This document shows positions 58,198 to 63,421 of a stretch of DNA of 64,000 nucleotides, one piece after another (position 1 is the stretch's first letter; each line of letters starts with the position of its first letter). The notes under the pieces were generated by a model. That model worked only from the letters and a program-made list of their open reading frames with translations, was not told the origin of the DNA and did no database searches. Both the position numbers and the translations under genes were made by a program. Source of the stretch: Fimbriimonadaceae bacterium (GTDB lineage Bacteria; Armatimonadota; Fimbriimonadia; Fimbriimonadales; Fimbriimonadaceae); NCBI GenBank assembly GCA_022843485.1, contig JALHNM010000011.1, positions 1-64,000 on the forward strand, written 5' to 3'.

Positions 58198-58296
58198 GGG
58201 TGCCAAGGGACTGGCACCCTCCGAGCCAGCGGAGTGTTTGGGTGCCAAGGGACTGGCACCCTCCGTGCCCGCGGAGGGTGCCAGTCCCTTGGCACC
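58198..58296. repeat. three copies of a 26-bp palindromic element
   Basis: Copies at 58198-58223 (+), 58240-58265 (+) and 58272-58296 (-). Each contains GGTGCCA-AGGGAC-TGGCACC, a 7-bp stem with a 6-nt loop, followed by CTCCG. Copies 1 and 2 share upstream GTGTTTG and are 42 bp apart; copies 2 and 3 are head-to-head and could form a long hairpin. Two more copies lie at 58835 and 60759. It is a REP-like extragenic element. Confidence 0.85.
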
Positions 58297-58353: not shown

Positions 58354-58855
58354 GTGCCAAAAGCGGTCTTCTGGGGTACCTAAGGCTGCCGTTTCGGTGC
58401 CAACAACGGCCGCTTGCGTGCCAAAGACGGCCGTTTGCGTGCCAAAAACGGCCGCTTGGGTGCCAAAGTCGGCCGTTAAAGTGCTAAAGTCGGCCGTTGA
58501 GGTGCTTCAGACAACCGGTTGGGTGCCAAATCAACCGTTTGCGTGCCAAAGACAGCCGTTGGCGTGCCAAAGACAGCCGTTGGCGTGCCAAAGACAGCCG
58601 TTGGGGTGACCATGGCGGTCTCTGGGGTGCAATGGGCGGCCGTTGGGGTCAAAAGGGCGGCTACTGGGGCGCAAAGGGCGGTCTATGGTGTGCAACGGGC
58701 GGTCTTTGGGACGCCAACGGCGGCCGATGGGATGCAAACGGCAGCCTTTGGGGTGCAAAGTGCGGTCCTTGGGATGCAATGGGCAGCCTTTGGGGCGCGA
58801 CAGGCGGGCGTTAAGGTACCAGGGGCGGTCGTTGGGGTGCCAAGGGACTGGCACC
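58354..58855 (+). repeat. 21-bp minisatellite, about 23 degenerate copies
   Basis: Near-perfect 21-bp periodicity (one unit is 20 bp, the first step 22). The unit begins GTGCCAAAG and contains CGGCCGTT. Three consecutive units near 58551-58613 are almost identical (GTGCCAAAGACAGCCGTTGG), while units after about 58620 drift toward GGGCGG cores. The last unit merges into palindromic copy 4. Because 21 is a multiple of 3 and stops are rare, both strands have spurious open frames encoding heptad repeats (VPKTAVG); I reject them as genes. Confidence 0.9.
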
Positions 58856-60758: not shown

Positions 60759-60784
60759 GGGTGCCAAGGGACTGGCACCCTCCG
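60759..60784 (+). repeat. palindromic element copy 5, right flank of ABC gene
   Basis: Same 26-bp element, 4 bp after the ABC stop and just before the end of the convergent PEP-CTERM gene; its stem-loop could terminate both transcripts. Confidence 0.9.
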
Positions 60785-60791
60785 GGGGGAC

Positions 60792-61886
60792 TTACGTGCG
60801 GCGTCGGCGACGCGTGAGGGTGGCGAGGCCGGCGGCGAGGGCGAGGAGGCTGGCGGGTTCGGGGATCGGGTTGAGGAGGAAGCCCCGGTTGATGCCGTTC
60901 AAGGCACCGAACCCGACGATCTGACCGCGGTCGTTGATGCCGGTGGCGACCTCAAGGGTCCAGCCAGCCCCGCTGCCGTCGAGCACGGTGTTGAGGTCGA
61001 CGCCCTGGTTCGGGGTGAACCAGACCGAGGCTTTCTCGAACTCACCGCCGCGCTTGGAGTACCCGACGACGTGGCCGAGGCCGTTGGCCGCGTACCCCGC
61101 GCTGCCAATGAAGCCCGCAGCCGGGGCCAGCTCGACCAGGCCGCCTTCGCGAGTCCAGGTCACTCCCGCCGTCGGGCGGATGAGTCCGTCCATCCGTCCG
61201 ACGGCCATGCCGTTCTGGTTGACCCCGAGGAACTGGCCGTCGGTGAAGGTCGGCAGGAGGTCGACGCCCACCATCCCGCCCGCCTCGGTGTAGACGAAAG
61301 GAAGGATCGCGTTGCCGTCCCAGCTCGTCCCGACGACCTCGCCCCGGTCGTTCATGCCGAAGACGTTGACTCGGTTCTCCTGGTTGAGCCCGGGGATCTG
61401 GCGGAACCCGCCGTCGGCGGACCAGACGAACGCGCGTTGCTCGAAGTTCGGCCCCCGATAGTTCCCGCTCACCAGCCGGTGCCGGTTCACGCCGACTGCG
61501 ATGGTGTACGCACCTGGCTGAAACCGTCCCACTTCATGGATTTGGCCGGCCGGATCCCAGAGAACCGCGACGTCAGGCTCGCCGAAGTTGCGGCCACTGC
61601 CCCCCGCGATCCAGCCGTCGGACGAGACCCCGAGGGCCGTACTGACGTCGTCTCCTGGGAGCGTGCCCAGATCTCGAACACGACCACCCCCGTCCCACAG
61701 GTTGGCCTTCCGGAAGGACTCGCCGACCGCGAGTCCGTCCTGAGTGATGGCTGCGACCCGTGTTTCTCTCGCGCCGCTTAGGGGCTCAAGAGGGACAACG
61801 GAATAGACGAGGGAGGCTGCCGCTCGACCCCCGAGCAGAGCGCTGACGGAAAGGAGCGTCACCGATCGAAGCCAGTCACGGGTCAT
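60792..61886 (-). CDS. HAF-repeat protein with PEP-CTERM sorting signal
   Basis: A 364-residue secreted protein. It has a signal peptide (WLRSVTLLSVSALLGGRAAA) and a series of HAF-type beta repeats (ITQDGLAVGES, NDRGEVVGTSWDG, NQNGMAVGRMDG, NDRGQIVGFGALNG). It ends in PIPEPASLLALAAGLATL and RRRRR, a PEP-CTERM signal recognised by exosortase, which must be encoded elsewhere. ATG 61886 overlaps the upstream gene's stop (ATGA), so the two paralogous-looking proteins form an operon. Such proteins commonly belong to the matrix or surface. Confidence 0.88.
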   Translation of the reverse strand: MTRDWLRSVTLLSVSALLGGRAAASLVYSVVPLEPLSGARETRVAAITQDGLAVGESFRKANLWDGGGRVRDLGTLPGDDVSTALGVSSDGWIAGGSGRNFGEPDVAVLWDPAGQIHEVGRFQPGAYTIAVGVNRHRLVSGNYRGPNFEQRAFVWSADGGFRQIPGLNQENRVNVFGMNDRGEVVGTSWDGNAILPFVYTEAGGMVGVDLLPTFTDGQFLGVNQNGMAVGRMDGLIRPTAGVTWTREGGLVELAPAAGFIGSAGYAANGLGHVVGYSKRGGEFEKASVWFTPNQGVDLNTVLDGSGAGWTLEVATGINDRGQIVGFGALNGINRGFLLNPIPEPASLLALAAGLATLTRRRRRT

Positions 61887-63421
61887 GGCCGGTAGATCCA
61901 CTCGACTTGGTCGTGCTGGAGCTGCCAGGAAGCCGCCACGGGGCCGGTGACGAAAACGCTGACCCGGGCCCGGACGCGGTTCCCAAGGACGGTGTCAATG
62001 AACCGGGCGGACCCTCCCGCCGGCAGCGCGAAGTCTTGGGCGGCGAACGTGGTCGTCAATGACCTTTGGTTCTGAGTCGGGGTCGTTAGCTGAACGTAGT
62101 CACCCAACGTCCAGTCGTAAAGGTCCACGACCTCGGAGAAAGCACCGGAGACTGTCGATCGGGCCGTGCTGCGCACGAACAGCTCCGCCACGGTCGAGAC
62201 ATTCAAGTTACCGGTCAGGGTCATCCTAACCCTGGGAGCACTCTGGTTGGGCACGACGAACTCGGAGGTCACGAGGTTCTGAAAGTCGGGCTCTGCGGCC
62301 TCGGAAATGCCACCTCCATCGACCTTACCGATGTCGATCGAAAGATGGTTCGCTTGAACCCGGCGGAACGTGCTGGGCTTAAGCACATAGCCACGATCGC
62401 CCGGCAAGTTCGCCCTCCCTGTGATCCAGCCGGACGCGTTGACACCGGCGACGTCGATCAAGGTGGCGACGACCCCCGGGTCGAGGAGCGACTGGAGACG
62501 GTACATCCCATCTCCCGTACGCCACACGAAGGGGCCCTGTGACGCTGTGAACCCGACGACTTGGACCGGACTACTCTCTTGGGCCTGGGGCGACAACGCT
62601 CGGGCGAACCCGCCGGTCAGGGTAGGAGGGTTGAGAAGTTGGAGTTGGCTGCTCGGGAGCTTGAGGAACGGCCCGCTTGACGAACCCGCCGAACTCACGC
62701 CGCCGACGAACGTGCCCACGTCGTTCACCGCGAAGATTCGGCCCTGCCATCCGGCGCCCCACCCGTCGGAGGAGTCAAGGAAGCGAGGAACGAAGGCTGA
62801 GCCCGATGACCTCCAGAGGGTCGGCTGTTCGCCCAACGCCCCTCCGAGGGAGTACCCTACGATGGATGCGCTCGCATTGATGCCTGATGCTTCCGCGAGG
62901 TCGTAGCCAGGCACCTCCGGGAGAATCGTCACGTTGGTCCCACTCTGGCCGTCCCAGTAGAAGGCGTCGTTGACTCCGGTGGCGTAACGGACTCCGGCGA
63001 CGAGACCGTTCGAACTGACGGCCTTCGCTTCGCGGAACCCTGAGATCCTGGCGGGGACGATCGGCGTCCCGTAGGTCGGAGCCACCCATTTGCAGGCGGC
63101 ACGCTCGCTGAACCCGTCGAGAACCCACCCCACGATATCCCCGTTTGCACTGACCTCGAAGGCCGCGCTATCGACGGTCGAAAGGCCAGTGAGTGTGCCG
63201 CTGGAAGGGTCGAATCGGAACGCCCGGGGCTCGGACGTGTTGGGGAAGTTGGCCTGGACTGTGGTCAGACCGCTAGGGCTAATCGACGTCCCCCCAGAGA
63301 CCTTCCCCGTACCTGGGTTCCCGGTGTCGATCAGTTGGTAGGTGTAGTCGATCTGTGCGCGCACCCCCCCCCCCCCAAGGAGGGCGGTGGCGCAAACGAT
63401 GAGCGCTCTCGTAGATTTCAT
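61883..63421 (-). CDS. HAF-repeat secreted protein with G13 tract in signal peptide
   Basis: A 512-residue protein from ATG 63421 (MKSTRALIVCATALLGGGGVRAQ, a signal peptide). The first ~330 residues carry HAF-like repeats (SANGDIVGWVLDG, SSNGLVAGVRYATG, NASASIVGYSLGG, NDVGTFVGGVSSAG); the remainder is beta-rich and ends without a PEP-CTERM motif, unlike its neighbour. A 13-base G tract encodes the Gly run at residues 16-19. One-base slippage would shift the frame near residue 20 and abolish the protein, so expression may be phase-variable. It is first in the operon with the PEP-CTERM gene. Confidence 0.85.
   Translation of the reverse strand: MKSTRALIVCATALLGGGGVRAQIDYTYQLIDTGNPGTGKVSGGTSISPSGLTTVQANFPNTSEPRAFRFDPSSGTLTGLSTVDSAAFEVSANGDIVGWVLDGFSERAACKWVAPTYGTPIVPARISGFREAKAVSSNGLVAGVRYATGVNDAFYWDGQSGTNVTILPEVPGYDLAEASGINASASIVGYSLGGALGEQPTLWRSSGSAFVPRFLDSSDGWGAGWQGRIFAVNDVGTFVGGVSSAGSSSGPFLKLPSSQLQLLNPPTLTGGFARALSPQAQESSPVQVVGFTASQGPFVWRTGDGMYRLQSLLDPGVVATLIDVAGVNASGWITGRANLPGDRGYVLKPSTFRRVQANHLSIDIGKVDGGGISEAAEPDFQNLVTSEFVVPNQSAPRVRMTLTGNLNVSTVAELFVRSTARSTVSGAFSEVVDLYDWTLGDYVQLTTPTQNQRSLTTTFAAQDFALPAGGSARFIDTVLGNRVRARVSVFVTGPVAASWQLQHDQVEWIYRP
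63364..63376. repeat. C13/G13 homopolymer tract
   Basis: Thirteen consecutive C on the + strand (G on the coding strand) inside the signal peptide of the gene above. The current length is in frame. It is the longest homopolymer I see in the window. Confidence 0.9.

Follow-up and report, generated by a model that had tools for sequence, protein, structure and literature searches.

A run of 13 guanines at the end of the signal-peptide code of a secreted protein gene (gene 1) in Fimbriimonadaceae is, on the pattern of sequence across its relatives and with a probability that we put at about 0.8, a slipped-strand contingency switch belonging to a multi-copy family of secreted proteins. The window that we analysed is a stretch of DNA of 64,000 nucleotides in which gene 1 is followed by a second secreted protein gene (gene 2) on the same strand, with the following features.

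61883 to 63421, minus strand: gene 1 (the tract gene), encoding a secreted protein of 512 amino acids, with its ATG at 63421 and its TGA at 61885-61883
63356 to 63421, minus strand: signal peptide of gene 1, MKSTRALIVCATALLGGGGVRA, followed by Q, with the cleavage site placed by inspection of the sequence
63364 to 63376, minus strand: G13 mononucleotide tract (C13 on the plus strand), in codons 16-20 of gene 1
62372 to 63352, minus strand: N-terminal all-beta part of gene 1, a probable beta-propeller with degenerate HAF-like repeats
61889 to 62368, minus strand: C-terminal domain of gene 1, ~155 amino acids, a carbohydrate-binding-module-like jelly roll
61883 to 61886, minus strand: ATGA overlap of the gene 1 stop codon and the gene 2 start codon
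60792 to 61886, minus strand: gene 2, encoding a secreted HAF-repeat protein of 364 amino acids with a PEP-CTERM sorting motif, without a tract

An earlier note on this DNA had described a 13-base run at the end of the signal peptide, and the G13 indeed lies exactly at 63364-63376 on the minus strand, in frame within MKSTRALIVCATALL-GGGG-VRA and followed by Q at the cleavage site; the signal peptides of homologues end in [VA]xAQ at the equivalent position. The reading frame is kept at 7, 10, 13 or 16 G, and the truncation that had been claimed for a one-base change is what the predicted products give, namely, 512 amino acids at 13 G versus 29 at 12 G and 47 at 14 G. Lying inside an open reading frame, the tract also exceeds the published threshold for a homopolymer locus (an intragenic G/C run of 7 or more; PMC6321876).

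Runs of this kind are rare, with 0.02 expected in the window from dinucleotide shuffles of the window itself. By pattern searches and inspection of sequence stretches, we found 22 G runs of at least 9 bases in the whole genome, 3 of them of at least 13. Extrapolation from short runs, with a continuation chance of ~0.26 per base taken from a 155-kb sample of the genome, predicted ~22 and ~0.1, respectively, and this excess of runs beyond 10 bases is the pattern that slippage would give. The majority of the 10 runs of at least 11 bases were intergenic according to automatic gene calls, and the G13 alone would have been weak evidence for a switch.

What supports the slipped-strand switch claimed in the earlier note is the recurrence of tracts across the family, made of other bases and at other positions, set against 30 other secreted genes that lack them. 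We compared the source genome (G000) with a genome of the same genus (G001) and one from another genus of the same family (G008), and a signal-peptide G or C run of 9-13 nt was present in 3/3 full-length members in G000, 4/5 in G001 and 2/2 in G008. The G000 loci C1:565660 (G11) and C6:80112 (C11) have signal-peptide tracts that are out of frame as assembled; the bodies that follow, of 482 and 522 codons, respectively, are intact. Signal-peptide runs in G001 were located at 275656 (G12), 664506 and 758538 (both G9), 1414833 (G9), 1687191 (C13) and 1937958 (G10). Gene 1, two other G000 genes and the G001 genes at 275656, 664506, 758538 and 1414833 are homologous over their full length.

The first 10 members assembled included 7 found through their own tracts, which biases the resulting count of 9/10, and a Fisher test of 9/10 against 0/31 is inflated by the same route of discovery (30 controls were actually checked). 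We therefore relied on the members recovered by homology, irrespective of tracts, as the fair test. Through a family HMM, we recovered five tract-bearing members (G008 1353938, C9, and 1214591, G9; one on contig C4 of G068, C9; and two on C15 of G065, G12) along with eight tractless ones, comprising the close paralogue G001 1428305 and seven more divergent genes. With a chance expectation of ~0.001 per gene, 5/13 corresponds to a P value of ~6e-10, or ~9e-5 if local tract density is taken to be 20 times higher; the fraction becomes 4/12 if the two G065 genes, which share a cassette, are counted once. No tract was found in any of 20 further secreted proteins that share the gene 1 C-terminal domain or in any of 10 downstream partner genes. 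Family tracts occur in genera g1, g8, g16 and g42, in both frame states (in and out). Across three genomes, ~13 of ~53 internal runs of at least 9 bases fell in signal peptides as judged by eye; by-eye curation replaced an automatic signal-peptide filter that let through 18-22% of control G4-G5 runs as well. Many matches to an ATG...G10 pattern in 85 family genomes were chance or contig-end artefacts.

Neither the base nor the position of the tract is constant within the family. G tracts lie just before the cleavage site in gene 1, C1:565660, 275656, 664506/758538, G008 1214591 and G065, and G008 1353938 has a C tract at this site; the tracts of G000 C6:80112 (C) and G001 1414833 (G) lie in the n-region, and that of G068 (C) lies just after the cleavage site. 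On the family tree these types are interleaved, and in the closest pair, 1414833 (with a tract) and 1428305 (without), the 5' ends are unrelated. Because base and position differ, we take the tracts to have arisen repeatedly, and such repeated gain within one family argues for selection. Some 5' ends are nevertheless shared. Two diverged G065 genes (C15:57706 and C15:99769; L256 and L257) have in common a near-identical segment of ~112 bp comprising the ribosome site, signal peptide and G12, although the ATG of the latter has changed to AAG. Similarly, two G001 genes 94 kb apart (664506 and 758538; L212 and L213) are identical in the ~1.1 kb that surround the start and tract, and divergent in their C-terminal halves, an identity that reflects recent gene conversion or assembly collapse. 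Tracts may spread by recombination between loci, and the shared 5' parts in G065 and G001 may instead be assembly errors.

With the best start codon for each gene, the assembled tract lengths put gene 1 and an unrelated secreted gene of G008 in the ON state and leave most of the rest a single base away from it (OFF), but these lengths are MAG consensus values from one assembly per species, such that OFF counts are unreliable and homopolymer assembly error is possible. No length polymorphism was seen among these assemblies, and the equal tracts (G9) of the near-identical G001 pair weigh against the switch reading, as does the lack of a tract in the divergent members and in the paralogue G001 1428305. 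In nearly all of the OFF genes, bodies of 387-649 codons stay open. The near-identical genes at 664506 and 758538, both G9, each offer two overlapping ATGs whose frames differ and which both give a plausible signal peptide, and as a consequence two of three tract lengths could be ON. G000, G001 and G008 all encode MutS and MutL, implying that the tracts are not mutator debris.

Three other explanations have to be weighed against a selected switch. The tracts might be a neutral by-product, in that signal peptides tolerate stretches of Gly or Pro and GC-rich DNA drifts into slipping runs. The predominance of intergenic sites among runs of at least 11 bases in the genomes examined fits this account, as does the excess over geometric expectation beyond ~10 bases, which slippage alone would produce. 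However, a frameshift in the signal peptide is as damaging as one in the body, yet runs in bodies are rare, and tracts recur in one family, with bases and positions differing, and occur in 0/30 other secreted genes; we consider this account very unlikely. Programmed slippage of RNA polymerase or the ribosome would yield a fixed in-frame fraction whatever the DNA length and would not be heritable. It could explain why bodies stay open even though the tracts, at their assembled lengths, mostly put them out of frame. Transcriptional slippage, where established, favours A/T runs, though, and neither base nor position is conserved here, and gene 1 is in frame, which makes this account a shade less credible still.

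The explanation to which we give the least credence is that the family is degenerating or that the tract lengths are sequencing errors. An in-frame TAG in G001 275671 and the loss of the ATG in G065 C15:99769 are lesions of the kind expected of decaying genes and count against the switch reading, and the many single-base frame offsets at long homopolymers could be errors. Against this, gene 1 itself is undamaged, with its tract in frame, and the bodies are open in nearly all members. Furthermore, errors alter the length of a tract but cannot place tracts in the signal peptides of one family, so assembly error, which may account for some OFF states, cannot account for the presence of the tracts.

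Under the contingency-switch reading, the G run would gain or lose one base at replication. At 13 (or 10 or 16) G, the signal peptide and the propeller-plus-lectin-like body would share one reading frame, giving an exported protein (ON), whereas at other lengths translation would stop 29-47 codons in and no protein would be exported (OFF). With several tract genes per cell, a population would then display many surface combinations. The start codon of gene 2 overlaps the end of gene 1, and translation of the two is probably coupled, so that the OFF state may also lower gene 2. We infer the high rate of length change, the surface location of the proteins and the coupling of the two genes.

The ATGA overlap noted earlier was located at 61886-61883, and such proximity recurs: in 8 of 12 family members examined, a same-strand secreted gene starts -1 to +13 nt from the stop codon. 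These downstream partners are often HAF-like, with a PEP-CTERM motif or the jelly-roll domain at the end. Because this short overlap or gap recurs, an effect of the gene 1 switch on gene 2 through translational coupling is plausible. The downstream protein is a PEP-CTERM protein, as proposed, its motif scoring above the cut-off (TIGR02595/PF07589). By contrast, the description of the tract gene itself as a HAF-repeat protein did not hold, since gene 1 scored 9.7 bits against the HAF repeat family TIGR02913 (cut-off, 22.65); the label suits gene 2, which scored 38.4 bits. Gene 1 is probably a propeller related to HAF-repeat proteins. At the equivalent position, G001 and four genomes of the family have proS but neither gene 1 nor gene 2. 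Nearby, the near-palindrome GTGCCAAGGGACTGGCAC has five exact copies, at 58200-58295, 58837-58854 and 60761-60778 (0.01 expected), and four of these lie in the 0.7 kb preceding the ABC transporter gene; the copies look like a REP-type element.

Structure prediction suggests that the gene 1 family, previously undescribed, likely combines a beta-propeller with, at the C terminus, a carbohydrate-binding-like jelly roll. The resemblance of the N-terminal part to beta-propellers is of moderate confidence because the full-length fold was modelled from just 3 sequences with a mean pLDDT of 65. Residues 352-511 form a domain that recurs in ~20 further secreted proteins of this genome, almost always at their extreme C termini; AlphaFold2 confidently folds it as a jelly roll (pLDDT, 85), nearest to carbohydrate-binding modules. 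Its Foldseek matches include CBM4, CBM6, CBM32 and CBM61, with TM-scores of only ~0.4-0.55, and it has no Pfam match; nor does Pfam match any of five family proteins. A contig scan with the whole of gene 1 as the query returned no relative, and one with the C-terminal domain returned relatives in Fimbriimonadaceae and other Armatimonadota MAGs. The jelly-roll domain ends secreted Armatimonadota proteins with open frames of 247-1366 amino acids and has two near-invariant Cys residues, a possible disulfide, both of which are absent from gene 1.

Random on/off switches of this kind are known mainly from pathogens, and the slipped-strand mechanism itself is already known. In the account given in PMC5354566 (citing Jonsson et al. 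1991), pilC1 and pilC2 of Neisseria gonorrhoeae carry a homo-guanine run in the signal-peptide region and are turned on and off by frameshifting. The likeness to gene 1 extends to the duplication of a surface protein gene, while the protein, phylum and lifestyle differ, and pilC has two copies, whereas the gene 1 family is larger and arranged in two-gene modules; variation has been shown experimentally for pilC, and we infer it for the gene 1 family. The Neisseria opa genes form a multi-copy surface protein family with a CTCTT repeat in the leader-peptide code of each copy (PMC3745409). The gene 1 family likewise has several copies, each with its own repeat in signal-peptide code, but uses G or C runs of separate origins and positions rather than pentamers. 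The Campylobacter phasome comprises many poly-G/C loci per genome, mostly of 9-10 bases, in ON and OFF states (PMC6321876). The present genomes similarly have many such loci in both states, but Campylobacter is low-GC and host associated, whereas the lineage studied here is environmental and high-GC, and its genic tracts are concentrated in signal peptides of a single secreted family. Among the HAF-repeat/PEP-CTERM proteins (TIGR02913, TIGR02595), gene 2 is a member; gene 1 has similar degenerate repeats but scores too low for HAF and carries a terminal jelly-roll domain absent from Pfam.

In the literature searched, we found no record of this protein family, of such switches in this phylum or of their use at multiple loci by an environmental lineage rather than a pathogen, and no paper there linked phase variation to Fimbriimonas or the term "phase-variable" to Armatimonadota. 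A broader scheme, which we advance tentatively and consider rather doubtful, is that environmental Armatimonadota vary their surfaces at several two-gene propeller/lectin modules, each with a tract, their 5' cassettes recombining between loci, such that switching and reassortment would occur outside any known host. Fimbriimonadaceae are known from metagenomes, and finding a putatively tract-switched family in them by sequence alone makes the question testable at defined loci, lengths and frames. If confirmed, the switch would imply that on/off variation of the surface is selected for even where no animal host is involved; phage or competition in biofilms are candidate drivers.

Runs of 9-13 nt G or C also occur within or just before the signal peptides of unrelated secreted genes in G001 (L215 and L216), G008 (L272 and L275) and G000 (L219, C8:81471), and the variable set may thus be wider than the gene 1 family. 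In two species, orthologous lipoproteins (L144, G011 C35; L176, G080 C36) have C11 or C10+ACCC just after the lipobox Cys, both in frame. A secreted TPR protein adjoining gatB in G000 (L049, C12:53455) carries an in-frame C12 and is a candidate variable gene.
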